From: an uncultured Marinoscillum sp.
Lineage (GTDB): Bacteria; Bacteroidota; Bacteroidia; Cytophagales; Cyclobacteriaceae
DNA length: 47,825 nt
NCBI GenBank assembly: GCA_902605755.1
Contig: CACLDR010000009.1
Coordinates: 1 to 47,825 of the forward strand
Reading direction: 5' to 3'
Shown in pieces: positions 5,463-46,583 of this stretch. The notes under the pieces were generated by a model. It was not told the DNA's origin. It was given only the letters and a program-made list of their open reading frames with translations, and did not search any database. Numbering within the stretch: position 1 is the stretch's first letter; every line of letters starts with the position of its first letter. The translations under genes and the position numbers were made by a program.

Positions 5463-6686
5463 ATGAACAGTTCAAGAAGTTTAAAAAAGGATGTCTCATA
5501 TTTAAACAAGCTCAATAAAATAGAGGTTTTGGGGTTGATTCGAAGATCAAGCGAAATTTCAAGAGCTGATATTGTAAAAAAAACTAAACTTAGTGCACCC
5601 ACGGTAACCAGAATAGTGGACAGTTTGATTGAAAGTAACTTGGTGCGTATTGTCGGAAATGGAGATTCGACTGGAGGCAGACCTCCAAAGCTAATTAGAT
5701 TTGATGGTTCAAATAATTTCGTGATTGGCGTTGATTTGGGTTCAACTAGTATCAGGGCAGTAATCTCGGACTTAGATGGAAAGTTTGTAACTGAAATTGA
5801 GACTCCCACTGATCTTAAAGGTGGGTTTGAAAAAATATGCTTGCAGTTAGTGGAGCTCATTAATAAACTAATAGAACGTTCTAAACTAGTTGAAGATAAA
5901 ATACTGGGTGTTGGGCTAGCGGTTGCTGGTTTAATTAACAGTGAAACCGGTATTATTGAATATTCACCAATGTTTAAATGGAAGAAAGTCAATCTTCAGG
6001 AGGAGTTAAAAAAATATCTAAAAATAGCTGTTTTCTATGATAATGTGTCTCGCGTTACGGCTTTAGGAGAATTACTGTATGGCGTAGGGAAAAAACACAA
6101 GAATTTCATTTGTGTTAACGTAGGTTTTGGTATTGGAGCTGGTATCATTATTAATGGGGAACCTTTTTTTGGTAATCGAGGCTTTTCAGGTGAATTTGGG
6201 CATATAATAGTAAATCATAATAGTCCCCATACAGATGCAGATGGCATCAGAGGATGTATTGAAGCACTTTCTTCGGGCTACGGTATTGCTGAAATTGCAA
6301 AAGATCAAATTAATTCTGGTAAGGAGAGTAGCATATTGAGCGATGTCAAAGGTAACACAGAGAAAATTACAGCAGAAATAGTAATAAATGCAGCAAAAGA
6401 GGAGGATACTCTTGCGTTGAAAATAGTGGATGAAGCCATGACTTACTTGGGAATTGGTGTAGATAGCCTAATCAAATTATTCAATCCAGAAATTATTGTT
6501 TTTAGTGGAGGGCTTGCCAAATCTGGAGAGATATTTTTTAACAAATTGGAAAAGCATATATTGGAGAATAAATTGCGTGAGATAAAATATATCGTAAAAC
6601 TAGTACCATCATCATTTGATGAAGATGCCACCTTGATTGGAGCTTTTTCACTAGTCACATCTAAAATACTCCAATTCGACAGTTAG
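5463..6686 (+). CDS. ROK-family transcriptional regulator (NagC/XylR type)
   Basis: An N-terminal winged helix-turn-helix (about residues 20-65; ISRADIVKKTKLSAPTVTRI) is followed by the linker GGRPPKL and a ROK sugar-kinase-like domain starting at VIGVDLGSTS (about residue 80). The domain ends with the FSGGLAKSG-type motif. Such proteins are usually repressors released by a sugar or sugar derivative. The ROK signature keeps GEFGH (about residue 243) and a final RGCIE, but the expected CxCGxxGC zinc cluster is replaced by HTDADGIRGC, with only the last cysteine left. Structural zinc is therefore probably absent or bound differently. As the first gene of the co-directional locus, upstream of susC, it is the best candidate for its regulator; the effector is unknown. 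Confidence 0.88.
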   Translation: MNSSRSLKKDVSYLNKLNKIEVLGLIRRSSEISRADIVKKTKLSAPTVTRIVDSLIESNLVRIVGNGDSTGGRPPKLIRFDGSNNFVIGVDLGSTSIRAVISDLDGKFVTEIETPTDLKGGFEKICLQLVELINKLIERSKLVEDKILGVGLAVAGLINSETGIIEYSPMFKWKKVNLQEELKKYLKIAVFYDNVSRVTALGELLYGVGKKHKNFICVNVGFGIGAGIIINGEPFFGNRGFSGEFGHIIVNHNSPHTDADGIRGCIEALSSGYGIAEIAKDQINSGKESSILSDVKGNTEKITAEIVINAAKEEDTLALKIVDEAMTYLGIGVDSLIKLFNPEIIVFSGGLAKSGEIFFNKLEKHILENKLREIKYIVKLVPSSFDEDATLIGAFSLVTSKILQFDS

Positions 6687-7211
6687 CCTTACTTAATTTG
6701 CATTTTAGTCACACTCAATTTTTTATATTTTTGTGACTTTATGAAGCAAGGTAATTTATGAATTATTTTAGCGTAAATAAATAAAAAAAACGTAAGGGTA
6801 AGATGTAATTTGGAGCAATAATTATTTTTCCCAAACACGAGCAATGTGCAATTTCAAAATAAAGTTTACTGTAAAATAAGTATATTCTCCTTTTTTATCA
6901 ATTTTTTAAAAAAAATCTTTTTTTTTCATTTTTTCATTTTTTTACCTGTTTTTATGCTATTTAAACTGCCAATTCAATCGAAGTATGAAATATCTAAATT
7001 TTTGATTCCTATTTAATAAATAATTCGCAAAAGACCTACTTAGCATCATGGTTCATAAGTTTTGGATTTCTTAGAATGGATCTTACTTTTGTTAGATTAG
7101 AAAGTATCTACGTCGTTTTTTACAACCAGATATACTATTCTATTGATAAATTAATTAACAATAATTAATAATATAAAGATTCAATATATATCAACTAAAT
7201 AACTAACAATT
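6687..7211. promoter_or_regulatory. ROK-susC intergenic region
   Basis: No gene is visible. Shortly after the ROK stop there is a 7-bp inverted repeat, AGTCACA (6707-6713) and TGTGACT (6732-6738), and a further TAGTCACA copy lies inside the ROK 3' end (6652-6659). A strongly T-biased tract occupies about 6890-6950. The susC promoter lies at 7061-7091, and the stretch before the susC start is AT-rich (about 7141-7211), as expected for a Bacteroidota leader. Confidence 0.5.
7061..7091 (+). promoter_or_regulatory. Promoter of susC
   Basis: TTTG at 7061-7064, a 19-base spacer, and TACTTTTG at 7084-7091 match the Bacteroidota sigma-A consensus TTTG-N19-TAnnTTTG. A start near 7098 would give a leader of roughly 115 bases. 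The architecture equals that of the tRNA-Lys promoter in this window. Confidence 0.7.
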
Positions 7212-10200
7212 ATGAAGAAGAAAATTTTGCTTTTAAGCATTTCCTTATTACTCATGATTGGGTCTACTATAGCCCAAAGAGCAGTAACGGGAAAAGTGAC
7301 TTCCAGTGATGATGGAACAGGAATTCCTGGGGTAAATGTCATTCTAAAAGGGACTACATCGGGTACAATTACTGATTTTGATGGAAACTATCGTTTGGAA
7401 GTCCCAGAAGAAGGAGGAACGCTTGTTTACTCTTTTATAGGTCTTAACTCTCAAGAAAGTGTAATAGGCTCAAGATCAGTCGTGGATATTGTGATGACTG
7501 CGGATCTTGCTGAACTCGAGGAAATAGTAGTACTGGGTTATAATGTTCAAGACAGGACAGATGTTACCTCAGCGATCGCCTCAGTTGATGTTACTAACAT
7601 GTCGAAGCGATCGACAGCAGATGTAACGCAGGCCCTTCAAGGAACTGTTACAGGAGTAAAAATAAAGTATACTGATGCAAATCCAGGTTCACCTATTAAT
7701 ATGACAATTAGAGGTGTGAGTTCCCCTAGTGGAACATCGGGTTCGCCGCCACTAGTAGTGGTAGATGGTGTCATGATTTCTGGATTACAAAATGTCTCTT
7801 TTGAGAATATCGTAGGTAATGGAGATGGAAACAGAACAACTACTGGTCTTGAAAACATAAATCCCAATGATATTGAGTCTATGGAAATATTGAAAGATGC
7901 CTCTGCAGCAGCAATTTATGGTTCAAGAGCTGCAAATGGCGTAATATTAATAACCACTAAGAAAGGAAAAAAAGGGGCGCCGCAAGTAAGTTTTAACGCA
8001 GAAGTTGGAGTTCAAACACCATACAAAGGTCCTGAAACAGCGAATACTGAGCAATATATGCAAATTTTACAAAGCATGTACGGTCAAGATTTAGGTGGTG
8101 AGGCTAACGATTTTCTCATGCCGCAAGCAGCTCTAGATTACTTGGATGATCCTAGTCAATTCAGTTCATATGATTGGTATGACCTTGTCTACAGCGAAGC
8201 CTTCACGCAAACGTATGATGTAGCAGTTTCGGGAGGTGGCGATTTTGGTAACTACCGCGTTTCAGCAGGATATAAGGATCAGGATGGTGTGGCATTAGGG
8301 ACGGGTTATGAAAGGATAAATCTGAGGGCAAATTCTGATTTTAATGTTTCTAAAAAACTTAAATTTGGACAATCAATAGCTATTTCTAATTCTGAAGTCC
8401 TTCCTGAACCATATGCATTTAGTCGTTCAGTCATGTTTAAGGCTATTGCTCAGGTACCTCATTTCTCTCCTTATGGCATCAATCCAGATCCCGCAAATGA
8501 TCCCTCAGCACCGCCGAGAACGAGATCTTTTTATTGGGGTGGAGGGGATAATCCCGAGGCACTGATAAGAAACCCATTGGACTACGCTAATTTCTGGAGT
8601 AAAAGTGATAAGCAAAGTACTGTCACAGCTAATTTATATGGTGAATATCAGATAATTTCAGGATTGAAGTTTAGATTGAGCGGATCTTATAACAGAACCG
8701 AGGGATACTTCAAAGAAAGAACAAGGACTTTAAGTCAACCTGAGGAATATTTCAACGCCGAGCGGTTTTTAAATGAAACTGAGATTGAAGACTCAAATTG
8801 GAACGTCGATAATATTTTAAGTTATGACAAAACAATTGGTAAACACAGCATTAATGCTCTTGTGGGATACGTGGCACAGCAATTTACCACACGATCTCTC
8901 AGTGGAACTAAAGAACTTTTCTTGTCAGACATAACCTCTACATTCGATGGACCAGGTGCTGACCCTAATTTGACAGAGCTGAATGGTAATTTGGAAGAAT
9001 ACAGAATGACTTCGATTATTTCTTCACTTTTTTATTCTTTCGATGACAGATACACAGTAAACTTCACTTTTCGCCGCGATGGCTCCTCAAGATTTGACGA
9101 ATCCGTAAGGTATGGAGACTTTCCTGGTATTTCTGGTGGTTGGACCCTTTCAAATGAGGGTTTCTGGAGAAATAGTGGATTATCTAATGTAATCAATCGC
9201 CTTAAACTTCGTGCTTCATACGGTGTCTTAGGACGCCAAGTAACCTCTGTTTACAGGCCGCAGGCTACATTGTCATTTATACCTTATTCTTTAGGTGGTG
9301 GTGTGGTTAATGGTCTTATGACCCCTGGCCCGATTAATCCGTTTATATCGTGGGAAGAATCGAAGACAACGAATTTTGGGGTTGATTTCGGATTGTATGA
9401 AGATAAGTTAACAGCATCAGTGGATGTTTTCGAACGCCAAACTGCCCAACTTATCTCGGCTATCGTCATACCATCTTCTGCGGGTGGAGGCGAAATTCAG
9501 ACCAATGATGGTGAGATAAACAATTCGGGTGTAGAAATAGAATTAAATTTTAACCAAGATATTGGTCCAGTTAATGTTAATGTTGGATTTAATGCAACAT
9601 ATATCTGGACGAGATTAACAAGTATCCCTGAGGACCTTATTTATGGTGATGGAGCTCCGGAATGGGATGTTCCTCATGTGTCACAAACATTTGAAGGTAG
9701 ATCACCGGGTGAATTTTGGTTGATCGAGACTGATGGTATTTTTAAGTCCCAGGCAGAAATAGATTCCCATGTAAGTTCAGATGGAACAGTTATTCAGCCA
9801 GATGCTCAACCAGGTGACATTAGATTTGTAGATGCAAATGATGATGGACAGATTACTTCTGAGCCTGAGGGTGGTGATCGAGTTTTCAGTGGACTGGGGA
9901 TTGCACCATGGAACGCAGGCCTGAATATAAATGCCACATACAGTAATTTTGATCTTACCCTTAGTTTTTATGGTAATTTTGGAAGCAAAGTTTATAATGG
10001 ACCAAAATATCTCTTAGAACAACCTTTTGGTTACGATAATTTCAGTCCGGCATTACTAGGGGCGTATGATGCCGCAACAAATCCAAATTCTAACTTTCCA
10101 AGAAACAATCCAAATGATGCAGGTGAAAATTGGAATTCTAGGCCTGATTCAGATCGCTATTTAGAAAATGGTAATTTTGTAAAAGCTTCTTTAATCCAAT

Positions 10201-10409
10201 TTGGATATAGATTACCATCGGCATTTTCTGAAAAATTGGGTATGAGTTCACCAAGAGTCTACGTTAGTGGTCAAAATTTATTTACAATCTCAGGTTATGA
10301 AGGAATTGATCCTGAACAAGGGCGTGATGGATTGATTAGTGCAGGTATTGATAGAGGTACGGCACCACAGTTTAGAACAGTATTACTTGGGTTTTCAGTC
10401 AACTTTTAA
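7212..10409 (+). CDS. SusC/RagA-family TonB-linked outer-membrane transporter
   Basis: The 1065-residue protein is a TonB-dependent channel that, with its SusD partner, pulls oligosaccharides across the outer membrane. It has a signal peptide (MKKKILLLSISLLLMIGSTIAQ) and a carboxypeptidase-regulatory-like beta-sandwich (about 23-105; TGIPGVNVILKGTTSGTITD). A TonB-box-like EEIVVLGY follows, then the plug with NPNDIESMEILKDASAAAIYG and ANGVILITTKKG (about 215-250). The remainder is a 22-strand-type barrel with aromatic strand ends, terminating in LLGFSVNF. The cognate susD begins 11 bases downstream. Substrate cannot be read from the protein; the two GH32-type genes in the locus suggest fructose-containing glycans. 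Confidence 0.95.
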   Translation: MKKKILLLSISLLLMIGSTIAQRAVTGKVTSSDDGTGIPGVNVILKGTTSGTITDFDGNYRLEVPEEGGTLVYSFIGLNSQESVIGSRSVVDIVMTADLAELEEIVVLGYNVQDRTDVTSAIASVDVTNMSKRSTADVTQALQGTVTGVKIKYTDANPGSPINMTIRGVSSPSGTSGSPPLVVVDGVMISGLQNVSFENIVGNGDGNRTTTGLENINPNDIESMEILKDASAAAIYGSRAANGVILITTKKGKKGAPQVSFNAEVGVQTPYKGPETANTEQYMQILQSMYGQDLGGEANDFLMPQAALDYLDDPSQFSSYDWYDLVYSEAFTQTYDVAVSGGGDFGNYRVSAGYKDQDGVALGTGYERINLRANSDFNVSKKLKFGQSIAISNSEVLPEPYAFSRSVMFKAIAQVPHFSPYGINPDPANDPSAPPRTRSFYWGGGDNPEALIRNPLDYANFWSKSDKQSTVTANLYGEYQIISGLKFRLSGSYNRTEGYFKERTRTLSQPEEYFNAERFLNETEIEDSNWNVDNILSYDKTIGKHSINALVGYVAQQFTTRSLSGTKELFLSDITSTFDGPGADPNLTELNGNLEEYRMTSIISSLFYSFDDRYTVNFTFRRDGSSRFDESVRYGDFPGISGGWTLSNEGFWRNSGLSNVINRLKLRASYGVLGRQVTSVYRPQATLSFIPYSLGGGVVNGLMTPGPINPFISWEESKTTNFGVDFGLYEDKLTASVDVFERQTAQLISAIVIPSSAGGGEIQTNDGEINNSGVEIELNFNQDIGPVNVNVGFNATYIWTRLTSIPEDLIYGDGAPEWDVPHVSQTFEGRSPGEFWLIETDGIFKSQAEIDSHVSSDGTVIQPDAQPGDIRFVDANDDGQITSEPEGGDRVFSGLGIAPWNAGLNINATYSNFDLTLSFYGNFGSKVYNGPKYLLEQPFGYDNFSPALLGAYDAATNPNSNFPRNNPNDAGENWNSRPDSDRYLENGNFVKASLIQFGYRLPSAFSEKLGMSSPRVYVSGQNLFTISGYEGIDPEQGRDGLISAGIDRGTAPQFRTVLLGFSVNF

Positions 10410-10420
10410 AAATCAAAAAA

Positions 10421-12220
10421 ATGAAAAAAATAAAATTTATTCATAAAATAATTATATCAATTTTCCTATTTACGGTTTCATCCTGTAGTAATGATTGGCT
10501 CGAAATTGAAAATCCTAACTCAATCACCTCTGGATCTTTTTTTTCGACGGATGATGATTTTGTAATGGCTGTAAATACATTGTTTGGAGATACTGAGGGT
10601 GGATTTAATGAACTTTGGTATGGTGGCTCCGAGGCTTCCAATCTTAGGAGTGATGCCATAGCCTTAGCTGCTGTTGATTTTGCTCAGTTTGCTCAATATT
10701 ATAGTTTTAATAATGATGCATCAAATGGTATTTCCGATGATATTTGGTCTGATGCTTACAGCACCATTTTCAAGGCCAATACAATTTTAAAGCAAATGAA
10801 TAGTTATCAATTTACGGATCCCGATTTAGCGGTATCATTAAATGCACAAATTCATTTTTTTAGGGGAGCTTCATTTTTTAGGATTGCCCATGCTTATGGT
10901 ACTGGTCCTATTCCACTAGATCCAGCTGAAACTGAAGATCAGTTCAATGTAGCTGCTGAAACTGCTGAAAATCTTTACGCACAGGCGATTCAAGATCTTA
11001 CGATTGCAAAAGCTGATTTACCCTCAGAGCAGGAAGAAGTAGGTAGGCCTACAAAAGGTGCTGCTACTGCATTTTTAGGTAAACTTTACCTATATCGCGC
11101 AGGTTATTTAAACGATGACAGTTCATATGGACTTGCTGCCAGTGAGTTTGAAGAGGTCATAACGACTGGAGGATATTCATTAACTGAGAATTGGTTGGAT
11201 AATTTTGTAGCCAGTACTGAGAATAATTCGGAGTCTATATACGAGGCGCAATATGACGTTTATTCTGGTTCATATAATGCTACGCAGCAAAGACCAGGGA
11301 CAGCAAGTGTCCCCGGCATCTCAGGAGAGATAGTTTTCAAACCCTCTGAGTGGATTTTTGAGGAAATGTCAAAAGAGCTCGATAATGACAGCCTTCATGA
11401 TGTTCGATTGTTGCGCACGCTTTATTTTGAAGGTGGATTACCATTATTTGGGGTAAATTTTGCAGATTTGGGAGATGGTTTAGTTTGCGCCTCTGGTGGG
11501 GGTGGTGAAGAAGATTCAGGAGGAGGACTTGAGTGCTGGGAAGAAGACTTTACTGGTGAAGATAGTTATTGGACGTCGGCAGTGGCAGATTTATATCCGG
11601 ATGCCAGAATTACAGAGGTAATGCTAAATGGTTGCTGGGACCCTGTTGCAGAAAGCGAATATGAAAATGTAACTGTTACATTAGATCGTGGCTGCAGCGT
11701 GGTTTTCAACCATTGGGAAGAGTCGATAATAGGTAATGGCTGCGAAGCATCTAATGATGGAGGCAGTTTTTCCGGTTGGTTAAGAAAATATCTCAGTGAA
11801 GATTTGGCATGCTACCCCGTCAATAATGTTAATAATGAAAGAATCATTCGTTATGCAGACATTTTATTGATGTACGCTGAAGCAAACTTTAAGGCTGGAG
11901 GAAATATTACTGCTTCAATAGATGCGGTTAACTTAATTCGAGAACGTGCCAATTTACCGGCTAGCGTCGATTCCAATGGAAATGCTCTAGATGCTACCAA
12001 TATTATGGAAGAAATAGAGCATCAGCGAATAATGGAATTTGTAATGGAGGGAACTAGATACTATGATATGATCCGATGGGGTGTTTTAAAAGAAAGACTA
12101 CAGGCCCACGGTTTTCCAGATGGTGCTGCAACACTTGATGAGGAAAAGCATAAATATTTTCCCATTCCTGTGGGAGAAGTGCTTTATAATGAGCTTATTG
12201 ATCAGAACCCATTATGGTAG
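10421..12220 (+). CDS. SusD/RagB-family surface glycan-binding lipoprotein
   Basis: A lipoprotein signal (IFLFTVSSC, acylated Cys22) is followed by the SusD fold: DWLEIENPNSIT near the N terminus, helical TPR-like repeats including AQIHFFRGASFFRIAHAYG, GRPTKGAATAFLGKLYLYRA, and the C-terminal RYADILLMYAEANFKAG and HQRIMEFVMEGTRYYDMIRWG motifs. It caps the SusC channel and selects the glycan. Between about residues 350 and 470 there is an unusual insert rich in Gly, acidic residues and cysteine (VCASGGGGEEDSGGGLEC, then further C residues), which is probably the ligand-facing loop. It is translated directly behind susC. A structured 3' region follows the stop. Confidence 0.94.
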   Translation: MKKIKFIHKIIISIFLFTVSSCSNDWLEIENPNSITSGSFFSTDDDFVMAVNTLFGDTEGGFNELWYGGSEASNLRSDAIALAAVDFAQFAQYYSFNNDASNGISDDIWSDAYSTIFKANTILKQMNSYQFTDPDLAVSLNAQIHFFRGASFFRIAHAYGTGPIPLDPAETEDQFNVAAETAENLYAQAIQDLTIAKADLPSEQEEVGRPTKGAATAFLGKLYLYRAGYLNDDSSYGLAASEFEEVITTGGYSLTENWLDNFVASTENNSESIYEAQYDVYSGSYNATQQRPGTASVPGISGEIVFKPSEWIFEEMSKELDNDSLHDVRLLRTLYFEGGLPLFGVNFADLGDGLVCASGGGGEEDSGGGLECWEEDFTGEDSYWTSAVADLYPDARITEVMLNGCWDPVAESEYENVTVTLDRGCSVVFNHWEESIIGNGCEASNDGGSFSGWLRKYLSEDLACYPVNNVNNERIIRYADILLMYAEANFKAGGNITASIDAVNLIRERANLPASVDSNGNALDATNIMEEIEHQRIMEFVMEGTRYYDMIRWGVLKERLQAHGFPDGAATLDEEKHKYFPIPVGEVLYNELIDQNPLW

Positions 12221-12785: not shown

Positions 12786-15700
12786 ATGATAACAATGAAG
12801 AGAGTAGTGAGTATCTTTAATTCGGGCTATTTTTTTAAATTATTCAGATTTGTGAAATGCTCGATTTTAGCCTCTGGTATGGTTTTTCTCCATGCTTGTA
12901 GTTCAAATCAAGGAATCGAGGGGGCTTGGGATTTTGAAATATTTTTTGATGAAGAACCTATTTTGGGTACTCTCAAATTAGAAAAAGAAAATGATTCTAT
13001 AGTTGGAGTTATACATTCTTTTTTATTGGGTAAGATTGAGTTCGAAGATTTGAAAATTGCCAATGATGAGTTGAATGCAAACTTCAAAAAATTTGGGATG
13101 CAATTTTACTTAAATGGTACATTTGATAATAGTGAATTTAACGGGACTTTAGTTGTAGATGATGATGAACTAATATTTACTGCAACAAGGCAATCATTCG
13201 AGCCAATCATTATTGATAGGTCGAACATCAAATACATGTTATCTGATAATGATTTGCAAGAGACAGAGCTTAATATAGATCATGCGGGAATAATTGAGGA
13301 ATTGAACGAAGAAGCTCTCGAGCGAGGAAGCCGAATATACAATGCAAATTGTATCAATTGTCACGGAAATCCTGATATGGAAGGATCCCTTCCTAATGCG
13401 GCTAAGTTTTGGAAACACACGTTTAAGGCAGGAAATGATCCTTTTTCGATGTACCAAACCATTACAAGGGGATACGGGGCCATGGCGCCACAGTTGAGAC
13501 TTACTCCTCAAGAAAAATATGATGTTATCACTTATATTAGAGAAGAATACATTAGAGATGAAAATAGAGACCAATATTTTAAAACTACACCTGGGTATTT
13601 GGAATATCTACCAAAAGGCACTTCTAGGGGTCCGGCTTCAAAGCCTTACAATCCATGGTCAGACCAGGATTATGGTAATTTTTTCATCAATACCTACGAG
13701 TTGTCAGATGAAGAGACGGGACCTGAGCGTCATCATTCCCCCGGACCTACGCCTTTTCCTGATGAGGACTATTTAAAAAATAATTTCGCCTATAAGGGCA
13801 TAGCTGTAAGGTTGGATAAAGGTGATGGTGGTGTTTCAGCTGGAAAAGCTTGGATGATATTTGATCATGATGTGATGCGGGTTGCTGGAGGTTGGACGGG
13901 AACGGGATTTATAGACTGGGAGGGTATTTTGCTTAATGATAGACATGAAACTTATCCTCGGACAGTAGGAAAACTTCATTTTGAAACTCCAGTTGGTCCT
14001 GGTTGGGCAAATCCCAGTACTGGCTCATTTGATGACTCTAGGTATACAGCAAGGGATGGACGTAAATTTGGGCCACTGCCGAAAAAATGGGCAAATTATA
14101 AAGGTCTATACCATCATGGAGATAAAATTATTTTTTCATACACTGTAGGTAGTGCTGAAATTCTGGAACATTTGGGAATGGAGGAAAAAGATGATCATAT
14201 TGTGTTTACCAGAACACTTAATATTACGCCTTCATCCTCACATTTAAAACTAAAAATAGCATCAGTCGCTAATAATGTTACCATCACTGGAAGTGGGGCC
14301 AGCCTCTCGAAGGAAGATGGTCACATAATTATGAGTGTTGAGAAATTCAAGGAAGCGCGAGTAAAATTATTCATTGCGGATTCAGAAGTCAAAAATTTTG
14401 ATCTAATAGTTAAGGAATCTCCAAAACCCGAATCTTTGTTAAAATTTACAAAGGGAGGCCCTGCGCATTACCCTCAAGTTTTAGAGAGTATTATAGTTAG
14501 AGGTAATAATGATGACCTATTAGCTGTAGATCAGTTGTCTCCACCATTTGAAAATCCTTGGAATGCACGAATGAAATTGAGTGGGATTGATTTTATGAAA
14601 GATGGAAATAGGGCTGTGGCTTGTACTACTGATGGTGACATTTTCTTGATAACTGGTTTAACGAAAGATGGTAATACATTAAAATGGAAGAGAATAGGTT
14701 CAGGGCTTTTCCAACCATTAGGAATCAAAGTATTTGACGAGAAGATTTATGTGACTTGTAGAGACCAACTTGTTCTTTTACGAGACCTAAATGGAGATGA
14801 GGAAACGGACTTTTATGAAAGTTTTAACAATGACCATCAGGTTACTGATCATTTCCACGAATTTGCCATGGGATTACAGGTAGATAAAGAAGGAAATTTT
14901 TATTATGCCAAAAGCGGTAGGCACGCTCGTGAGGCCCTAGTTCCTCAACATGGTACTTTAATAAAAGTCAGTAAAGATGGTAAAAAGTCAGAAATTATTG
15001 CTTCAGGTTTTAGAGCTGCAAATGGTGTTTGTTTAAACCCGGATGGAAGTTTTTTAGTAACGGATCAGCAAGGATATTGGAACCCAATGAATCGTATTAA
15101 TTGGATAGATGTTGGAAAAGAAAATAATTTTTTTGGGAATATGTGGGGATATAACCCTCCCGCTGATTCTAGTGATTTGGCCATGGAACCCCCTATGGTT
15201 TGGGTGGATATGGAATTTGATCGATCACCATCTGAGCTTTTGTGGATTGATAGCGAAAAATGGGGTCCCTTGAATGGAGGGCTTTTGAGTTTTTCTTATG
15301 GTTATGGAAAGATGCAACTGGTATTGCATGAGGAGGTAAATGGACAGAGACAAGGAGGTATTGTTGACATGCCTCAATTGCAATTTTACACTGGTGTTAT
15401 GAGAGGTAGATTCCATCCGGAAGATGGTAATTTGTATTTGTGTGGAATGTCGGCATGGAGTACGTCAAAAAATATGAGAACCGGTGATCTTTATAGGATA
15501 AGATATACTGGTAATCCAGTTAGCGTTCCTATCAAGCTTAATGCAGCAGAGGATGGTATTCAATTATCTTTTGCATCCGAATTAGATGCAGAAAAAGTAG
15601 CCAATCCTGAAAATTTTGAAGTCCAAACCTGGGATATTATTAGAAGTAGTGATTATGGATCAGAAAGATACAATACAAAAATACTTAAGATTGTTAAGGT

Positions 15701-26779: not shown

Positions 26780-26818
26780 TATATGAGCAGTGACCAAATA
26801 ACAAATCAATTAAAGATT

Positions 26819-37962: not shown

Positions 37963-39666
37963 ATGAAAAAAATTATTTTTTATATGATGATTTTTAATTC
38001 TACTAGCATGTTTGCTCAGCAGTTTATAGAATTGAAAGTAGAGAATAAATATATCCATCTACCAGTTACTCATGACTATAAGGATGAAACGCGTCTCGAA
38101 TTAGTTTTAAATAATAACACAGAACAGGTATTTGATATTTGGCTTGCTGATTCAGAACCTGATTTTTGGGTCTTTTTAGATGTGTCTATTTATAATCAAA
38201 AAAAAGTTATAATTCGAACACAGTATGGTGATGAACGAAAAGGGCTTAACCTTATTTACCAGTCAGATAATCGAGATTACTTGAAAAATGTCTATAAAGA
38301 AAAATATCGACCCCAGTTACATTTTTCTAGCATGAGAGGTTGGAATAATGATCCCAATGGGCTTATTTATTACGATGGAGAATATCACCTTTTTTATCAG
38401 CATAATCCATATGGATCGGCATGGGGGAATATGCATTGGGGACATGCTAAAAGCAAGAATTTACTTAACTGGGTTCAATTATCTGAGGCATTGTACCCTG
38501 ATGAGATAGGTGTTGCTTATTCCGGATCAGCAGTTATCGATTACGAAAATACTTCAGGATTCAAAACTGGAAATGATGATTTAATGGTAGCTATATACAC
38601 GACTACTTGGTTTCCTGATAGGTATGAGGAGTCTAATCCTGGACAAAAGCAACTCGAGACTCAAAGTTTAGCATATTCAAATGATAAGGGCCTTACATGG
38701 ACTAAGTACAAAGGGAATCCTGTTATCGGAGATAGAAGAGAGCTTCTGGGCAGTACAAATAATCGTGATCCTAATGTGTTCTGGCATGAAACAACAGATA
38801 AATGGGTAATGATACTTTTTGAAAGAATAGGTATGTCTATTTTCACTTCGGATAATTTAAAAGATTGGAAATATGAAAGTCATTTTGAGACATTTTGGGA
38901 GTGTCCTGAGCTATTTGAATTGCCTATAGATGAAGATTCAAATAATACTAAATGGGTAGTGTACGATGCGGGGGGCGATTATGTTTTAGGAGACTTCGAT
39001 GGGAAAGAATTTAAAATCACCTCTGGTGCGCATAACTATATTGATGGAGAGTTCTATGCGGCTCAAACTTTCGAAAATATACCTTCTTCAGATGGAAGAA
39101 GAATACAAATCGGATGGGCAACTATTCCAACACCTGAAATGCCTTTCAACATGATGATGGCTTTTCCTACTCAATTGACCCTCAAGACTGGAAAAGAGGG
39201 AGTGAGAATGTTTAATAAACCTGTAAAAGAAATCTCAGAACTCCACAAAAACGGGAAAATATTAAATAATATTACACCGCAGGATGCTAATGAAGCACTT
39301 GTAAATATTAGATCTGAGAAGCTTCATGTTAAATTTCAAATTGAGAATATCAATGCCATTATGTATACCTTCAATTTTGGGAGTGATCAACTTACCTATT
39401 CGATCAACAATAATAAGTTCATTTTTAATGATGAGGAGAAAGTGTTCAAATATCTTCCAGAGTTTGCAAGTAAGAACATGACTCTAGAGATTATTCTCGA
39501 TAAAACGAGCATTGAAGTTTTTGTTGATGAGGGCCGCTTTACTATGGTTTTGCCTCGAAGTTTGGAAACAGAATATGATGGAATTTCCATTGTACCCGGT
39601 GACGAAGATCTCACTGTAAAAATTAAATCCCTTGAGGTTCACGAAATGAAATCAATATGGGACTAA
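37963..39666 (+). CDS. Glycoside hydrolase family 32 (levanase/inulinase/invertase type)
   Basis: A 567-residue exported enzyme (signal ends near MFAQ). The N-terminal beta-sandwich (about 20-115) resembles the DUF4980 module of Bacteroidota levanases. The GH32 propeller keeps all three catalytic acids: Asp130 in GWNNDPNGLIYYDG, Asp269 in NNRDPNVFWH and Glu313 in FWECPELF. The C-terminal sandwich (about 430-567) ends IEVFVDEGRFTMVLPRS, the usual GH32C motif. It releases fructose from beta-fructosides such as levan, inulin or sucrose; exo versus endo action cannot be told from sequence. It is the strongest evidence for the locus substrate and is the last gene of the tightly packed block. Confidence 0.92.
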   Translation: MKKIIFYMMIFNSTSMFAQQFIELKVENKYIHLPVTHDYKDETRLELVLNNNTEQVFDIWLADSEPDFWVFLDVSIYNQKKVIIRTQYGDERKGLNLIYQSDNRDYLKNVYKEKYRPQLHFSSMRGWNNDPNGLIYYDGEYHLFYQHNPYGSAWGNMHWGHAKSKNLLNWVQLSEALYPDEIGVAYSGSAVIDYENTSGFKTGNDDLMVAIYTTTWFPDRYEESNPGQKQLETQSLAYSNDKGLTWTKYKGNPVIGDRRELLGSTNNRDPNVFWHETTDKWVMILFERIGMSIFTSDNLKDWKYESHFETFWECPELFELPIDEDSNNTKWVVYDAGGDYVLGDFDGKEFKITSGAHNYIDGEFYAAQTFENIPSSDGRRIQIGWATIPTPEMPFNMMMAFPTQLTLKTGKEGVRMFNKPVKEISELHKNGKILNNITPQDANEALVNIRSEKLHVKFQIENINAIMYTFNFGSDQLTYSINNNKFIFNDEEKVFKYLPEFASKNMTLEIILDKTSIEVFVDEGRFTMVLPRSLETEYDGISIVPGDEDLTVKIKSLEVHEMKSIWD

Positions 39667-39685
39667 TAAATTATTATAAAATTAA

Positions 39686-39828
39686 TTTTTATCTCCGCTT
39701 TGGTGGATTTGTAAACTGAATAAATGAATTATTTTAAGAATTTGGTTTAGTTTAAACTGAAAGATGGACTACTTAGTTGATTGCTTTAATAATCATAATA
39801 GTCAATTTTGGTACAGTGGAGATAAAAA
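39686..39828. repeat. 143-bp element bounded by 14-bp inverted repeats
   Basis: TTTTTATCTCCGCT (39686-39699) is the reverse complement of AGTGGAGATAAAAA (39815-39828) with a single G-T wobble. Inside, TAAACTGAA occurs twice in direct orientation (39712-39720 and 39753-39761), and short hairpins GTTTA-GTT-TAAAC and TGATT-n8-AATCA are present. It may be a long RNA stem after the GH32 gene or a MITE-like remnant; no clear target-site duplication flanks it. Confidence 0.35.
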
Positions 39829-40127
39829 ATGAAATTCTGCCAATAACGGTGAATGAAATTAATTTGAGATTATCGGTGCTAGATTGGATAAATTAAACGA
39901 TTAATATTAATAAAATTTTAAAATGTTGAAACATGGTTTAAGTATTTTTTTATATGAAATACTTTTTTTTAAGTAATGCATTTCTTAAGTAATAAAATGA
40001 GTTTACAAGGAACCTATGAATCACTAATACAACTTATATACGAGTATTTTAAATTTTATTTGGGCAACATTTCCATTATATTTGACAGCTTGATTATTGC
40101 AACTAAATTATGTTGGCTCTGCTCCTA

Positions 40128-40702
40128 ATGAGAAAAAAAGTAGCACCCTTAATTAGAAACTTGACTATCAAGGAAAATTATTTTGTTAAAAAAGATTACG
40201 AACACTTCGTAACACGAGGTGTAGTCCCGGACATGTTGTTAGTTAATGGGAAATGAAAAATAATATGGTAATATGCGTTCGGTGCGTCAGTTTAACCATG
40301 CTTGAATACCTAGGCTTGAACAGTGATTGGGGCTATGTAATCGGGACAGATCTCGGTGATACAATTGACAATGAGGTATATTATTGTTTTGGACTTTTAA
40401 AATCGGTTGCTGAGCTATTTCGGATGATTTTATATGATTAAAGTTAAAATTTTATCAGAAAATAGTGAGGGATAATATTGCTGAGAGTTAATTGTTGGTT
40501 GAATGTAACCTTAATGATAACTATGATATTTTTTTTGCAAAAGGAATTAAATTTACTGATAGCGATAGATATGAAGTCAATGCCTGAGATAGCCATTACT
40601 AAAAAGAAATCAGATCGTGGGGTAGTTGATCATTTTATTGTCTACTGCAGGTACGTATTGTTAAACTTAATGGGTGATCTCTATTCTCATGACAAATGAA
40701 TC
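40128..40702 (+). pseudogene. Decayed gene region, possibly a ROK-type regulator remnant
   Basis: Several short fragments in different frames read like protein. ATG 40128-40256 encodes 42 residues (LIRNLTIKENYFVKKDYEHF). ORF 40253-40441 contains GLNSDWGYVIGTDLGDT, similar to the start of the ROK kinase fold (compare VIGVDLGSTS in the regulator at 5.5 kb). The frame at 40501 gives ECNLNDNYDIFFAKGIKF before a stop. ORF 40478-40699 has no recognisable family. A -7-like TATATTTG lies 44 bases upstream of 40128. This pattern suggests a gene broken by several frameshifts; the ROK link rests on one short motif and is tentative. The two ORF-track entries here should not be treated as real proteins. 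Confidence 0.3.
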
Positions 40703-40797
40703 TCGTAATTTTGTTAAATATTAGCTATGAAAAGTTATTAGCCAAACTTCAGGTGCTTCACGACAAGACAAATTACTTTAAGTAAAAATAGCATTAA

Positions 40798-41835
40798 ATG
40801 ATGAATAAGTATCCAAAATTACACAATGCCACTTGGCCAGGCGTCGTTGGAAAAGGAGATGACGAACCTTTTATAAGTCTTGATAAAATGATCGATTTTA
40901 CCGCAAAATCAGTGGTCAATGGGCGTAGATTTGATGGAGTAGATCTATTTCTATCTGATCCTCATGTTTCGATAGATTCCACAGATGATCAATTACAAAT
41001 TCTTGCGGAACAACTAAAAGGATGCAATTTAGTAGCGGGATCTTTAGTTGCGCCAGTATGGTCAGAGACCGGAGGTGGATCCGCTATGGGAAATAGCCAG
41101 GATCGTAAGAATTTTTTAAAACAGGTTAAAAAAGCATGTGTAATCGCAAATAAACTAGAAGGTTTGGGAGTTAGACCATATGGAATAATTAGAATAGATT
41201 CGGCGACTGATGTCCAATCATGGAGTAAAGATCCTAAAGAAAATACAAAGCTAATTGCTTGCACCTTCAGGGAGGCAGCTAAAATTGCTGCCGACTATGG
41301 TCAAAAATTGGCAGCAGAGGGTGAGATCTGTTGGGGGGGAATGCACAGTTGGAAATGGATGTTGCGTACGCTTGAACTAGCAGATGCTGGTGATGTACTG
41401 GGGTTTCAGGCAGATTTAGCACATTCTATGCTTTATTTATTAGGTTATAATGCCAATGAGCATCGGCTTTTAGATAATGATTTTGACTGGAATGATAAAG
41501 CGGATTTTGCTTCGGCATATAAAGAAATGACGGATGCTCTTCGGCCATGGACAATTGATTTCCATGTTGCGCAAAATGATGGAACTGTAAAAGGGCAGGG
41601 CTCACATGATAAGACAGGAAAACATTGTTTAGCAGACGATCCAAATGGAAAACTGAACATTCCTTGGGCAGCTGGATTTTGGTTAAATGAGGATGGTCAA
41701 CCCCGAAAAAAAATTCGTCATATATGTTGGGATGGTTGTATGTTTCCAAATGCAACACTAACTCAACAAAAAACATGGAATAATATTCTTGAGGTAATGT
41801 TGGAAGTTCAAGAGGCACATGGATGGTCAGCATAA
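40798..41835 (+). CDS. Sugar isomerase/epimerase-like TIM-barrel protein
   Basis: A 345-residue cytoplasmic protein without a signal peptide. It opens with [15 protein letters not shown] and contains the TIM-barrel signatures of the sugar-phosphate isomerase/epimerase superfamily: [44 protein letters not shown] (probable metal Glu), [11 protein letters not shown] (Asp, His) and [22 protein letters not shown] (His and the GxG loop), then [11 protein letters not shown]. This is the xylose-isomerase-like type often found beside ThuA and DUF1080 genes in 3-keto-sugar loci. It starts a small group with the next TIM barrel 19 bases downstream. The exact substrate is unknown. Confidence 0.75.
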
Positions 41836-41854: not shown

Positions 41855-42679
41855 ATGAGTAAAATTTCACTAGGCGCAGAGGTTTACACATGGTTTATGA
41901 GTGAGGGTGGAAAAACCTTTAAAAACCAATTGGGCCATATGATTGAAGTGGTGGCTGAAGCAGGCTTTACCGGTATCGAACCCATGCACTTTTGGATGGG
42001 TGATTGGGATGATCCAGTTAAATTATCTGAAAAACTTGATCAACACAATATAGAATTGGCTGGTATAGCATTAGCCTTAGATTGGAATAACCCATTTGAA
42101 ACAGCTTATGAGAGAAGTCAAGCAGATAGTGTAATTGATTTGATTAGGCACTTCCCAGAATGTGTATTATGCACTGTGCAGTTGCCCTCCGGTCGGCATG
42201 ATATTGTGGAGCGCAGATTAAATTTAATTTCTAATGTAAATATGGTTTCTAAAAGAGCTGCAGATATGGGAATAAAGTGTTCTTTCCATCCCAATTCACC
42301 TGAAAACTCCATAAATAGGACTGAGGAGGACTATGATGTAATTCTTAGTGGCTTGGATCATTCTGTTACTGGTTGGACACCAGATGTCGGGCACATTATA
42401 AATGGCGGGATGGATATTCTTCCTAAAATGGAAGAATATAAATCATTAATCAATCATGTGCACTACAAAGATTGGAATGGGGAACCTGAATGGGCTTTGA
42501 TGGGAAAAGGGAAAATTAACTTTGAAGAGATTACCAAATGGTTAGTAAAAGAAAATTATAAAGGCTGGATACTTTGTGAGGACGAAGCAGATGAAGCAAT
42601 TGAAGATCCAGATGGTGTAACTTTACATGACGGAAAGTATTGCAATCAAAAATTAATGCCTATTATTTTTGATAAATAA
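41855..42679 (+). CDS. Sugar phosphate isomerase/epimerase-like TIM-barrel protein (IolE-like fold)
   Basis: The 274-residue cytoplasmic protein belongs to the same TIM-barrel superfamily as its upstream neighbour but to a different branch. Visible motifs are AGFTGIEPMHFW near the N terminus, GIKCSFHPNSPENS in the centre, TPDVGHIINGGMD with the likely metal Asp and His, HVHYKDWNGEPEWALMGKGKINFEEI carrying the conserved His and the GxGxI/V loop, and WILCEDEADEA with the final acidic residue. Inosose dehydratase and related 3-keto-sugar enzymes share this set, so epimerisation, isomerisation or dehydration of a keto-sugar is plausible. The start of the next gene lies just past its stop. Confidence 0.75.
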   Translation: MSKISLGAEVYTWFMSEGGKTFKNQLGHMIEVVAEAGFTGIEPMHFWMGDWDDPVKLSEKLDQHNIELAGIALALDWNNPFETAYERSQADSVIDLIRHFPECVLCTVQLPSGRHDIVERRLNLISNVNMVSKRAADMGIKCSFHPNSPENSINRTEEDYDVILSGLDHSVTGWTPDVGHIINGGMDILPKMEEYKSLINHVHYKDWNGEPEWALMGKGKINFEEITKWLVKENYKGWILCEDEADEAIEDPDGVTLHDGKYCNQKLMPIIFDK

Positions 42680-42710
42680 AATGATTACTATTTTGAGAAA
42701 CATAATCCAA

Positions 42711-45700
42711 ATGAGGAAAAAAGAGCACTATTTCATTGCGGCGAACTTCTGTCTTCTATTATTTATTTGTTGTAATTCATCTGGTGATGAATTGGATCAG
42801 TCGCTAACTACTGTTTTAGATAAAGATGCTGCAACGATATCTGTATTTGTAAGCAATAATAATCAACCAATCCTTGTTCAAAATGCGAAACCAGATTTTC
42901 GGCCTTATTTGCATCCTATTCTAGCGCCTGATGGAAAAGGCTTTCTTACCGAAAATAGTCCAGAGCATCATTCTCACCAAACAGGGCTCTATTGGGGTTT
43001 TACAAGAGTAAACGGTCAAAAAATTGGGATTGATAGTTTGATGAAATTCTTTTATGATCCAAAGACTGAAGAGCAAAAAGTAATTAAAGGGCGTGATTAT
43101 TTCCATAATATGGGAAAAGATTACTGGAAACGAGTGAGCTTTGATATTCTTGATCCAATAGGTAAAAAGGTGAGATGGCAGACGGTATACTTAATGTTGG
43201 ATGCAAATGGAGATCCACTGATGAAAGAAAAACAGGTTTGGTCTCTTGAATTAAAAAAAGAACAATATTTACTAGAATTGGAATGGAATGGAGAGGCTAT
43301 CGAAGAAATTGTTATCGGAGAAATGCAGTACGGCGGAATGTTTCTTCGTATGCCATGGAAGGAAGGAATAAAAGGTGAAGTTGTTAATTTCGCTAGGCAG
43401 AAAAACGAAAAAGCAGAAGGCCAGCACGCGTTATGGATGGATGTAGGTATGCAGGTTGAAGGAAGAGATGATATGGCTCATATTGCTATTTTTGATCATC
43501 CCGATAATAGGGGGTTTCCGCAAACTTGGAGAGTGGATTCACAATTGGGTATCGGACCTAGTCGAGCCATTATGGGTGATTGGAGAATTTCAAAGGGGAC
43601 TACAGAAACTATTAAACATGGATTAGTAGTTTATACTGGAGAGTTAAATGATTTGGATCTAACAGAAAAATGGAAAGGTTATGTAGGAGATTATGATATG
43701 TACTCAACCGCTGGTTTGTGGGAGATCGCTCAGGAAGAAGGGTTTAAGGCGAAGTTTCTGACTTCTGATGAGCAGGTAGCAAAAATGACTATCAAAGATG
43801 GGTATGAGGTCAATGCTTGGGCGTCAGAGCCGATGATAACTCAACCAATGGCATTTTGTTGGGATGATAAAGGGCGATTGTGGATTGCTGAAAATAGAGA
43901 TTATGAGTCACGCGGAAGTGGCTTCTCAGGATCTGGAGACAGTAGAATCCTTATAATTGAAGATACCAATGGTGATGGAAGAGCAGACTCAAGAAAGGTT
44001 TTTGCCGAGGGTATTGCATTTCCATCAGCATTAGCGGTAGGTTTTGGTGGTGTATTTGTGGGAGCTCCGCCCAATCTGTTATTTATCCCCGACAGAGATG
44101 GAGATGATGTTGCCGAAATGGATGATATTGAGGTAAGATTAACTGGATGGGGCATTAGAGACAGACATGAGACTATAAACAGCTTTCATTGGGGACCTGA
44201 TGGTTGGCTTTATGGCCTAGAAGGGTTTGCCACTCCATCAAAAATACGAAGGCCCGTAGGAAAGGGTAAAATTTACAAACACAATGAGCAATTCCCTGAA
44301 GATTTATTAGAAGCAGATGGCATTGATATTAATGGGGGTGTTTGGAAATACCATCCAACTAAAGACAGATTTGAAGCTGTAGCTCATGGATTCAGTAACC
44401 CTTGGGGTATTGATTATAATTCTAAGGGTCAGCTTTTTATTAGTGCGTGTGTGATCCCTCATCTTTTTCATATTGTGCCGGGTGGTATTTATCATAGGCA
44501 AGGGGGTCAACATTTTAATTCTTACATTTATGATGATATTAAAACCATAGTGGATCATCGCCACAGGTCAGCGCACGGGGGAGCGCGAATTTATATGTCA
44601 GATGCATTTCCTCCTACGCAAAATAATCGAATATTTATGGCTAACATTCACGAGCACGCCGTTCTCTCCGATATTCTTGTTTCCAGGGGTTCCGGTTTTG
44701 TAGCCAAACATGGCGAAGATTTTATGATGGCTAACAATGCACAATGGGTAGGATTTAGTTTGGAAATTGGTCCTGACGGAGGGCTATATGTGCTTGACTG
44801 GCATGATGCAGATATTTGTGGCAACACGGTGGCCCATAAGGAGACAGGAAGGATTTTTAGAATAATGCCGAAAAAATCCCATGCTAAAGAGTGGAAAGGG
44901 AGATATGATGATTTGGCCAAGTTTTCAGACTTAGAGCTTGCTGAACTTCAGCTTAGCCCGTCCGATTGGCATGCAAGACGTGCTCGAGTAATTCTTCAAG
45001 GTCGAGCCGTCAAAGAAGCTATAGCTACGGAAGCAATAGAAAAGTTGATGAATATTTATAAGAATGAAAGTAATTCTGATTTTAGATTACGAGGACTTTG
45101 GGCACTTCATGTTACCAGTTCCTTGAGAGAGAATGATTTGCTTGCTGCTCTAGAAGATTCAGATGAATATATTAGAGCGTGGTCAATTCAACTATTGGGG
45201 GAAGAGAGGATTATATCATCAAACGCATTACAAAAGTTTTACACCATGGCTGTTAATGATACGTCTGCTGTTGTAAGATTATATCTGGCAGCGGTGTTAC
45301 AACGCATTCCTATAAATGATCGCTGGGAGATTGTATCTGCTTTAAGTCAAAGGTCTGATGATAAAAATGATCATAATATACCTAAAATGATATGGTTTGC
45401 GATGGAGCCTAATGTTGCTATTGATGTAGAAAGGGGATTAAAATTAGGATTGGAAACTAAAATGCCAATTATTGCGGAGTATATAGCAAGAAGGGTGTTA
45501 GATGCTAATGGATTGGAGCAATTGTTGACTGCAATACAAAAACCCTCTGCAAATCAGAAGTATCTATTAAATGGGCTAAGAAATGAAATTGAAAATCGCT
45601 CTGACATAAAACCAACAGACAACTGGGAACAAACCTATGCATTATTGTCTTCCAATGAATCCACAAAAGGTATAGCTATCGAGATTGCTCAGCTTTTTGG

Positions 45701-46583
45701 TAGTGCAGACGCTGCCAATCAGCTCCTTACAATTCTTGAAGATACCAATTCATCGCTTGAAGATAGGCAGAAATCACTAACAGCCTTGGCCAGCCGCGCA
45801 TGGTCCGGATTAAAGCCTAAAATATCGGAATTCATGGATGATCCAGACTTAAGAATTCAGGCAATTAGAGCAATAACTCATTATAAGGACATCGAATTAG
45901 GTTGGGATATGTTTGAAAAGTTTGAAAAGTTTAATGAAAAAGAGAAGCTTGAAATTTTATTAGCGTTGTCCTCGAGGAGAGTTTATGCGAATATTTTGAC
46001 CGAGGCTATTTCAGAAGGTTTCATAATGAAGAGTGAAATTCCTGCTCATATAGCTAGGCAGCTAAGACGAGTCATGGGCAATGGTTTCGTTGAAGTTTGG
46101 GGTCCTATAGACGACATTTCTGCTGATGTTGAGTCTAGTTATAAACGCTATAAAAAACTTTTAACAGACAAAAAATTGGAACTTGCAAGTACTATTAAGG
46201 GTAAAGCAATTTTTTCACAGACTTGTGGGGCATGTCATCAATTGTTCGGTGAGGGAGGCATTTTAGGCCCCGAATTGACGGGATCAAACCGATCAAATAT
46301 TGATTATCTCCTTTCCAATATATTGGAACCGAGTGCCGATATTCAAGATGATTATAAAATGGTAGTTATTACCACTAGAGATGGTCGTACTTATCTAGGC
46401 ACAGTGGCTAGTGATAATGATAGATATTTAGTTTTAAATATCTTGGGGCAGAGCAAGGCAAAGATCAATAAGTCAGATATACAATCAAGAGAAGATACGC
46501 CTAATTCTATGATGCCTGCTGGGCTATTAGATAATATGAATGATCAAGAAATTTTGGATTTAGTCGCTTACTTAAAATCATAA
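42711..46583 (+). CDS. Fused DUF6807 (PmoA-like) and PVC-type haem-binding CxxCH lipoprotein
   Basis: ATG 42711 is preferred over TTG 42669 and ATG 42681 because it gives a compact lipoprotein signal (FCLLLFICCNSS); the product is then 1290 residues. Residues about 50-330 are a DUF6807/PmoA-type domain (HPILAPDGKGFLTENSPEHH, HHSHQTGLYWGF). Next comes a six-bladed dehydrogenase-like propeller of the Planctomycetota-type N-terminal kind (about 360-720; DDKGRLWIAENRDYE, NSFHWGPDGWLYG, GPDGGLYVLDWHDADICG). HEAT-like helices cover about 740-1120, and the C-terminal cytochrome c has CGACH at 1172-1176, the downstream Met in NSMMPAG and GRTYLGTVASDNDRY. Predicted: periplasmic sugar oxidation coupled to haem c. 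Substrate and cofactor are unproven. Confidence 0.8.
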   Translation: MRKKEHYFIAANFCLLLFICCNSSGDELDQSLTTVLDKDAATISVFVSNNNQPILVQNAKPDFRPYLHPILAPDGKGFLTENSPEHHSHQTGLYWGFTRVNGQKIGIDSLMKFFYDPKTEEQKVIKGRDYFHNMGKDYWKRVSFDILDPIGKKVRWQTVYLMLDANGDPLMKEKQVWSLELKKEQYLLELEWNGEAIEEIVIGEMQYGGMFLRMPWKEGIKGEVVNFARQKNEKAEGQHALWMDVGMQVEGRDDMAHIAIFDHPDNRGFPQTWRVDSQLGIGPSRAIMGDWRISKGTTETIKHGLVVYTGELNDLDLTEKWKGYVGDYDMYSTAGLWEIAQEEGFKAKFLTSDEQVAKMTIKDGYEVNAWASEPMITQPMAFCWDDKGRLWIAENRDYESRGSGFSGSGDSRILIIEDTNGDGRADSRKVFAEGIAFPSALAVGFGGVFVGAPPNLLFIPDRDGDDVAEMDDIEVRLTGWGIRDRHETINSFHWGPDGWLYGLEGFATPSKIRRPVGKGKIYKHNEQFPEDLLEADGIDINGGVWKYHPTKDRFEAVAHGFSNPWGIDYNSKGQLFISACVIPHLFHIVPGGIYHRQGGQHFNSYIYDDIKTIVDHRHRSAHGGARIYMSDAFPPTQNNRIFMANIHEHAVLSDILVSRGSGFVAKHGEDFMMANNAQWVGFSLEIGPDGGLYVLDWHDADICGNTVAHKETGRIFRIMPKKSHAKEWKGRYDDLAKFSDLELAELQLSPSDWHARRARVILQGRAVKEAIATEAIEKLMNIYKNESNSDFRLRGLWALHVTSSLRENDLLAALEDSDEYIRAWSIQLLGEERIISSNALQKFYTMAVNDTSAVVRLYLAAVLQRIPINDRWEIVSALSQRSDDKNDHNIPKMIWFAMEPNVAIDVERGLKLGLETKMPIIAEYIARRVLDANGLEQLLTAIQKPSANQKYLLNGLRNEIENRSDIKPTDNWEQTYALLSSNESTKGIAIEIAQLFGSADAANQLLTILEDTNSSLEDRQKSLTALASRAWSGLKPKISEFMDDPDLRIQAIRAITHYKDIELGWDMFEKFEKFNEKEKLEILLALSSRRVYANILTEAISEGFIMKSEIPAHIARQLRRVMGNGFVEVWGPIDDISADVESSYKRYKKLLTDKKLELASTIKGKAIFSQTCGACHQLFGEGGILGPELTGSNRSNIDYLLSNILEPSADIQDDYKMVVITTRDGRTYLGTVASDNDRYLVLNILGQSKAKINKSDIQSREDTPNSMMPAGLLDNMNDQEILDLVAYLKS

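Follow-up and report, generated by a model that had tools for sequence, protein, structure and literature searches.

A tRNA-Lys-associated island in a marine Cyclobacteriaceae bacterium combines a polysaccharide utilization locus with a 3-keto-type sugar module and a candidate cytochrome-linked oxidase

The 47,825-bp stretch of DNA analysed here (the window) is the entire contig C9 (GenBank CACLDR010000009.1) of a 1.76-Mb metagenome-assembled genome, 68% complete, whose host belongs to an uncultured marine genus of the Cyclobacteriaceae ('Flammeovirgaceae'). The unit of interest within it is a ~37.5-kb island, at ~5.09-42.65 kb, which extends from the gene for a ROK regulator to that for the third of three TIM-barrel proteins (TIM1 to TIM3). 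The island is probably an acquired polysaccharide utilization locus (PUL) equipped with a 3-keto-type sugar module, in which a periplasmic propeller linked to cytochrome c, here termed DUF6797cyt, would supply the oxidation. The Gfo/Idh oxidoreductase that accompanies TIM2 in most relatives is missing, a peculiarity of this lineage within a pathway that ordinarily includes such an enzyme. Genes were inventoried by open reading frame (ORF) calling and Pfam scans of the window ORFs.

An island at a tRNA-Lys site

The island starts ~45 bp downstream of a tRNA-Lys gene, and its boundaries are evident from congeners. In G110 and G145 the two ends of the window (1-5093 and 42648-47825) are contiguous, lying only 558-576 bp apart, while an identical empty site flanked by both window ends is present in G149; in G041 and G150 even the DUF6807 gene is missing at the empty tRNA-Lys site. 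The island occupies this site in G153 and G154, where the aligned portions are roughly 80-95% identical, and a compact but complete version is located on another contig of G149. An empty site beside a tRNA in close relatives, the hallmark of a tRNA-associated genomic island, is thus present. Pfam scans of the window ORFs revealed no integrase, and no exact flanking direct repeat of at least 13 bp was found at the island ends and the tRNA 3' end.

As both window ends adjoin in G110 and G145, and flank the G149 empty site, the DUF6807-cytochrome gene at the right of the window and the FdhF/YdeP-type gene beyond it comprise ancestral flank. Indeed, the DUF6807-cytochrome gene is 83-91% conserved in G110 and G145, both of which lack TIM2 and TIM3. 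Since the right-hand propeller is old flank, the locus contains a single cytochrome propeller, and the presence of one near each end is an accident of insertion.

In a maximum-likelihood tree of TIM2 the sequences from the window, G153 (as L242) and G149 share a 100/100-supported clade with G005 and two Opitutales (Verrucomicrobiota), apart from other Cyclobacteriaceae sequences. This placement points to horizontal transfer.

Other features of the site were noted in congeners. At the G110 empty site (L205:17222-17832), the 558 bp that separate tRNA-Lys from the DUF6807 gene appear by eye to include a transposase-like (IS3-type) remnant, which is possibly a footprint of turnover at the tRNA-Lys site. 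The island-less congener G041 carries a copy of DUF6797cyt broken by several stops (L041, on contig C10 of that genome), suggesting past presence and loss. In the G154 island (L237, reverse-complement coordinates 2433-4523) extra genes, one weakly DUF1080-like, lie between the two CRTAC1-like genes.

The missing partner of TIM2

As the earlier note on this DNA had stated, the window contains no Gfo/Idh gene: Pfam detected no such domain in any ORF scanned, and the gap at 39667-40797 contains no ORF of more than 76 aa. Within this gap, which lies between the second GH32 gene (GH32b) and TIM2, ~700 bp (40015-40728) are window-specific, being absent from congener G153 and without a match to the neighbouring genes. 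The possibility that 39.7-40.8 kb is a decayed gene of the Gfo/Idh, sulfatase or PQQ-like kind was rejected because no remnant was matched except the TIM2 start, and because G153 lacks the ~700 bp.

Of the 149 family genomes, 44 contain TIM2. In 39 of these 44 TIM2 adjoins the gene for a Gfo/Idh ortholog that shares 76-91% identity with the G135 query, whereas none of the 149 contains the ortholog without TIM2. The association extends across phyla, with a co-oriented Gfo/Idh gene downstream, at a distance of 1.5 kb or less, in 39/52 well-flanked TIM2 loci of named genomes; the pair occurs in Bacteroidota, Balneolota, Planctomycetota, Verrucomicrobiota, Acidobacteriota and Pseudomonadota. The earlier note had held that conserved Gfo/Idh dehydrogenases beside this gene set in relatives would refute its proposal, and these two surveys are literally that finding. 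The usual TIM2 operon encodes a PVC-type propeller, DUF1080 and DUF4432 proteins, an unnamed 400-aa protein, TIM2 and Gfo/Idh. This arrangement, seen at L064:9616-17750 and its equivalents in >20 Cyclobacteriaceae, where the 400-aa protein has no Pfam match, represents an uncharacterised pathway.

The five TIM2-bearing genomes whose assemblies lack the Gfo/Idh ortholog are that of the window, G005, G008, G025 and G052. In four of the five TIM2 is situated <5 kb from DUF6797cyt, and the window has both in one island; in contrast, the two are this close in 0/39 of the others (p=4e-5). The Gfo-less arrangement is found in two distant clades of the TIM2 tree and thus arose independently at least twice rather than five times. 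The module's Gfo/Idh ortholog was also not found in any of the four island-bearing congeners, whose genomes are 68, 81, 84 and 91% complete.

Several observations weigh against DUF6797cyt having taken over the role of Gfo/Idh. The two are encoded in one cluster in the Flavobacteriaceae (L251, L254 and L259) and in related Bacteroidota (L272), and 19 family genomes carry both; DUF6797cyt is therefore not simply a substitute for Gfo/Idh, and strict replacement was rejected. Only two independent Gfo-less lineages back replacement. It could be argued, moreover, that the keto-sugar is generated in trans, by a Gfo/Idh encoded elsewhere in the genome, such as the contig C16 enzyme, which bears a signal peptide and has DUF1080 as its partner, or the pair on C22, and that DUF6797cyt has another role, for example oxidising the released aldose or reducing end. 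Indeed, this 68%-complete genome contains eight Gfo/Idh matches, of which one lies beside DUF1080 (C16) and two adjoin another cytochrome c propeller, and the frequent coexistence of DUF6797cyt with Gfo/Idh in relatives is consistent with such a division of labour. None of the eight, however, is an ortholog of the module's enzyme (~31% identity or less, mostly partial matches), and two lineages without that ortholog keep DUF6797cyt with TIM2. Oxidation in trans is a possibility to be taken seriously, if not the one we favour.

The DUF6797cyt propeller

DUF6797cyt is the only recognizable oxidoreductase left in the island. No paper mentioning DUF6797 was found in a search of open-access papers, and the domain has no assigned function. 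The protein is highly conserved (mean column identity 73% in the propeller), and an AlphaFold model of the propeller alone (predicted local distance difference test score (pLDDT) 79; predicted template-modelling score 0.85) has a six-bladed sGDH-type fold. The top 15 matches of this model in the PDB are all pyrroloquinoline quinone (PQQ)-dependent glucose/aldose dehydrogenases (target-normalised template-modelling score up to 0.72), and the AA12 pyranose dehydrogenase appears at rank 23. Pfam GSDH also matches 19/23 relatives, though weakly. Three residues, H691, R743 and R873, are invariant in 23/23 relatives; their order and motif context, compared by eye, resemble those of the catalytic His and PQQ-binding Arg of sGDH and CcPDH (PMC6881789). 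A model of the whole protein (pLDDT 74) retrieved generic propellers only, and a search of PDB sequences with a profile built from the propeller alignment gave repeat-level matches only. The search for pqqC yielded no match in any genome, positive controls included.

Homologous propellers are coupled to different electron carriers. Paralogs at L068:6440-10284 (contig C1 of the same genome as the window) and L082:7030-9126 have cupredoxin (plastocyanin/SoxE) as the fusion partner in place of cytochrome c, and adjoin DUF1080 genes both on C1, where the neighbour is a DUF1080+PA14 protein, and in G018. A further paralog, on contig C22, is fused to cytochrome c. That one type of propeller is joined to either haem c or cupredoxin argues for a redox role, and DUF6797cyt is a good candidate oxidase for the island. 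The earlier note had envisaged periplasmic oxidation with electrons passing to haem c in two propeller proteins; the proposal gains support for the DUF6797 propeller, whose predicted fold matches PQQ sugar dehydrogenases and which is fused to cytochrome c, but finds none for the second.

Set against an oxidase, DUF6797cyt has Ala in place of the Asn that adjoins the PQQ-binding Arg of CcPDH (PMC6881789), Pfam SGL (SMP-30/gluconolactonase) matches 23/23 DUF6797cyt-type propellers, and SMP30/gluconolactonases rank next after the PQQ enzymes among the structural matches. The last two observations could indicate that the propeller is an SMP30-type lactonase or a binding protein, the cytochrome domain having an unrelated or regulatory role. 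Such a function is unlikely, however, as it is PQQ dehydrogenases that fill the leading structural matches, and the fusion of homologous propellers to cytochrome c or cupredoxin implies electron transfer.

Gene content and conserved core

The features of the window are as follows.

4971-5046, + strand: tRNA-Lys(TTT), also at the empty site of G110 and G145
5094-42647, + strand: island; no counterpart at the tRNA-Lys site of G110, G145 and G149, present in G153 and G154
5463-6686, + strand: ROK family regulator with winged-helix N-terminus
7212-10409, + strand: SusC-like TonB-dependent receptor
10421-12220, + strand: SusD-like lipoprotein
12786-15884, + strand: DUF6797cyt, a lipoprotein with cytochrome c (CxxCH near residue 190), DUF6797 and a six-bladed-type propeller; putative periplasmic sugar oxidase
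15996-17192, + strand: MFS transporter
17220-18062, + strand: TIM1, ketose 3-epimerase-like (D-psicose/D-tagatose 3-epimerase, IolO)
18077-18877, + strand: alpha/beta hydrolase, PcaD/RutD-like
18905-20032, + strand: ThuA-domain protein, probably secreted
20356-22155, + strand: FG-GAP/UnbV_ASPIC protein with a type IX secretion system (T9SS) tail, CRTAC1-like
22233-24041, + strand: second FG-GAP/UnbV_ASPIC protein with T9SS tail
24038-26779, + strand: LamG-domain protein
26783-27874, + strand: esterase 1
27951-29990, + strand: GH32a, LamG plus GH32-family domain with non-canonical catalytic motifs
30027-31283, + strand: esterase 2, PHB-esterase-like
31280-32466, + strand: esterase 3 (BD-FAE), frame broken by a 1-bp deletion at ~32062
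32589-34199, + strand: ThuA plus DUF1080 (3-keto-disaccharide hydrolase domain)
34273-36450, + strand: ThuA plus DUF1080 plus LamG
36454-37959, + strand: GH43-family protein
37963-39666, + strand: GH32b, canonical GH32 with DUF4980
40798-41835, + strand: TIM2, AP_endonuc_2-like
41855-42679, + strand: TIM3, IolE-like (inosose dehydratase family)
42669-46583, + strand: outside the island, DUF6807 plus DUF7133/TIGR02604 propeller plus HEAT plus cytochrome c; ancestral flank common to G110, G145 and G149
46786-47825, + strand: outside the island, FdhF/YdeP-type molybdopterin oxidoreductase truncated at the contig end; ancestral flank

The locus has the attributes of a PUL, namely a tandem SusC (7212)/SusD (10421) pair, carbohydrate-active enzymes (two GH32 and one GH43) and a ROK regulator, and it contains the DUF1080 3-keto-disaccharide hydrolase domain expected of a 3-keto-glycoside locus. 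The earlier note was largely right about content. Pfam confirms its three ThuA domains (18905, 32589 and 34273), two DUF1080 domains (32589 and 34273; 118 and 91 bits against a cut-off of 26.8) and three AP_endonuc_2 TIM barrels (17220, 40798 and 41855), and the gene content supports a 3-keto-type protein set. Both of its GH32-type genes (27951 and 37963) belong to the family, but only GH32b has the canonical NDPNG, RDP and ECP motifs; GH32a, which also scores above the Pfam cut-off, has GDPNP, WDPD and SCAN in place of NDPNG, RDP and EC. It had not listed the GH43-family gene (36454), the three esterases (one frameshifted), SusC/SusD or the two T9SS-tagged FG-GAP/ASPIC proteins. The frameshifted esterase, BD-FAE (31280-32466), is split into two frames by a 1-bp deletion at 32062 relative to G153, while G153, G154 and G149 encode an intact 393-aa protein; the lesion could be a sequencing error or genuine.

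The compact G149 unit has the order ROK-SusCD-DUF6797cyt-MFS-TIM1-alpha/beta hydrolase-ThuA-CRTAC1-GH32a-esterase 2-esterase 3-ThuA/DUF1080 (the first such gene)-TIM2-TIM3. It lacks GH32b, GH43, the second ThuA/DUF1080 gene, the LamG gene, esterase 1 and the second CRTAC1-like gene. Fructan hydrolysis is therefore accessory, not core, as GH32b and GH43 are dispensed with and the GH32 that is retained, GH32a, lacks canonical motifs; the fructoside specificity that the earlier note had suggested for the locus does not reside in what is conserved. In other genera the recurring companions of DUF6797cyt are TIM1, TIM2, TIM3, the alpha/beta hydrolase and ThuA. Across the 149 family genomes DUF6797cyt co-occurs with TIM2 (p=6e-12) and TIM3 (p=1e-14), as do TIM2 and TIM3 with each other (p=5e-15), these p-values ignoring shared ancestry.

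The earlier note erred at the right boundary. Gene order and strand (all main ORFs, from the ROK-helix-turn-helix gene at 5463 to the DUF6807/DUF7133/HEAT/cytochrome c gene ending at 46583, do lie on the + strand, as it had claimed, and both propellers with a CxxCH cytochrome domain, at 12786 and 42669, are predicted lipoproteins) had led it to a 41-kb locus in which the two, one at each end, would jointly oxidise fructosides, but this is very improbable given that the right-hand propeller and its formate dehydrogenase-like neighbour sit at the empty site of island-less congeners, the locus ending at ~42.65 kb, and that the compact unit dispenses with the canonical GH32 and GH43. The empty-site comparison illustrates how gene order on a single contig can mislead on what belongs together.

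A model for keto-sugar metabolism

The account that we favour, and hold with moderate confidence in its entirety, is of an acquired island in which oxidation by DUF6797cyt is followed by cleavage by ThuA/DUF1080 proteins, import by the MFS transporter and conversion by the TIM barrels and hydrolase. Gene content, the limits of the island, the conserved core, the lack of the module's Gfo/Idh and, in a predicted model, the fold class of the propeller were observed; we infer the oxidation chemistry, cofactor, substrate and order of steps. The SusCD pair, carbohydrate-active enzymes and esterases would bring a decorated, possibly fructose-containing, glycoside into the periplasm, where the glycoside hydrolases and esterases would trim the glycan. 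There, DUF6797cyt may oxidise a sugar hydroxyl, most likely at C3, through its quinoprotein-type propeller, passing the electrons to its own haem c. The ThuA and ThuA-DUF1080 proteins would cleave the oxidised glycoside in the periplasm, and the keto-sugar, once imported by the MFS transporter, would be converted in the cytoplasm by TIM1, TIM2, TIM3 and the PcaD-like hydrolase. In most relatives the TIM2 module would instead use the NAD-type Gfo/Idh encoded beside TIM2, a gene that appears to be gone in this lineage.

These locations rest on N-terminal sequences judged by eye: ThuA and DUF1080 proteins have signal-like segments, and the TIM barrels and alpha/beta hydrolase do not, which agrees with cleavage before import as the earlier note had proposed. 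The mechanism of that note is supported in part. DUF1080 is a 3-keto-glycoside hydrolase (PMC9007349), and proteins of TIM-barrel fold, or with a sugar phosphate isomerase annotation, are known to eliminate and hydrate 3-keto sugars (PMC7676230, PMC10628242). No close relative of TIM2 with a solved structure was found.

Formate dehydrogenase genes lie immediately next to the core in three relatives, together with FdhD: an NAD-type enzyme with a NuoF-like subunit in G005 (L045:4288-9709), and YdeP-type enzymes in G025 (L051:1679 onward) and, with an FGGY kinase and a class II aldolase, in G012 (L151:10593 onward). Their position suggests that the keto-sugar pathway may yield formate. A role in the island for the window's own FdhF/YdeP gene, which is ancestral flank, was unsupported. 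It is conceivable, but rather doubtful, that DUF6797-cytochrome c proteins constitute a new family of sugar (3-)dehydrogenases, periplasmic and linked to cytochrome, able to take over from the NAD-dependent Gfo/Idh of a cross-phylum pathway that releases formate.

Discussion

Similar to the 3-keto-glycoside pathway typified by the DUF1080 proteins BT2157 and CCNA_01705 and the lactose 3-dehydrogenase LacABC (PMC9007349), the island encodes signal-bearing DUF1080 hydrolases, a nearby transporter and sugar epimerases, and the periplasmic oxidation proposed here would parallel the membrane-bound periplasmic step of the LacABC version. In contrast with that pathway, the island lacks both GMC-type LacABC subunits and Gfo/Idh, its candidate oxidase is a cytochrome c propeller, and its ThuA domains are fused to DUF1080. 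Pfam scans found no GMC protein in the window, and hence no LacABC-type set of GMC large subunit, small subunit and cytochrome c; the single GMC of the host genome lies on another contig and is choline-dehydrogenase-like by eye. The levoglucosan system LgdA-LgdB1-LgdB2-LgdC (PMC7676230) and the 3-keto-glycoside beta-eliminases (PMC10628242) likewise use isomerase-annotated or TIM-barrel proteins that act on 3-keto sugars, but those operons include NAD-linked or Gfo-type oxidoreductases, which the island does not, whereas the island has SusCD, glycoside hydrolases and esterases.

With respect to the propeller itself, the AA12/AA8 quinohaemoprotein CcPDH (PMC6881789, PMC4332668) and bacterial sGDH/Asd offer the nearest fold, CcPDH also combining a PQQ-type six-bladed propeller and a cytochrome domain in one protein. 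On comparison of sequence and predicted fold, DUF6797cyt differs from CcPDH in having haem c rather than haem b, in being a lipoprotein, in its extra DUF6797 domain and in the non-conservation of the Asn adjoining the PQQ-Arg. The PVC-type haem-binding CxxCH proteins (TIGR02604/DUF7133), of which the DUF6807-cytochrome protein of the window is one, also join a propeller to cytochrome c, but DUF6797cyt falls far below the TIGR02604 cut-off (31.2 versus 122.2 bits).

The island appears to carry out sugar oxidation outside the cell membrane by means of a haem propeller, a step for which most relatives employ an NAD-type dehydrogenase; this would amount to a modification of a known pathway. The conserved TIM2-Gfo/Idh pair, which spans several phyla, offers a good starting point for assigning a keto-sugar pathway that is as yet uncharacterised. 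Synteny gives DUF6797, in turn, a specific hypothesis, that of a sugar oxidase linked to the respiratory chain in place of the NAD-dependent dehydrogenase of most relatives; if this is true, the oxidative step would move to the periplasm and its electrons would enter respiration directly.

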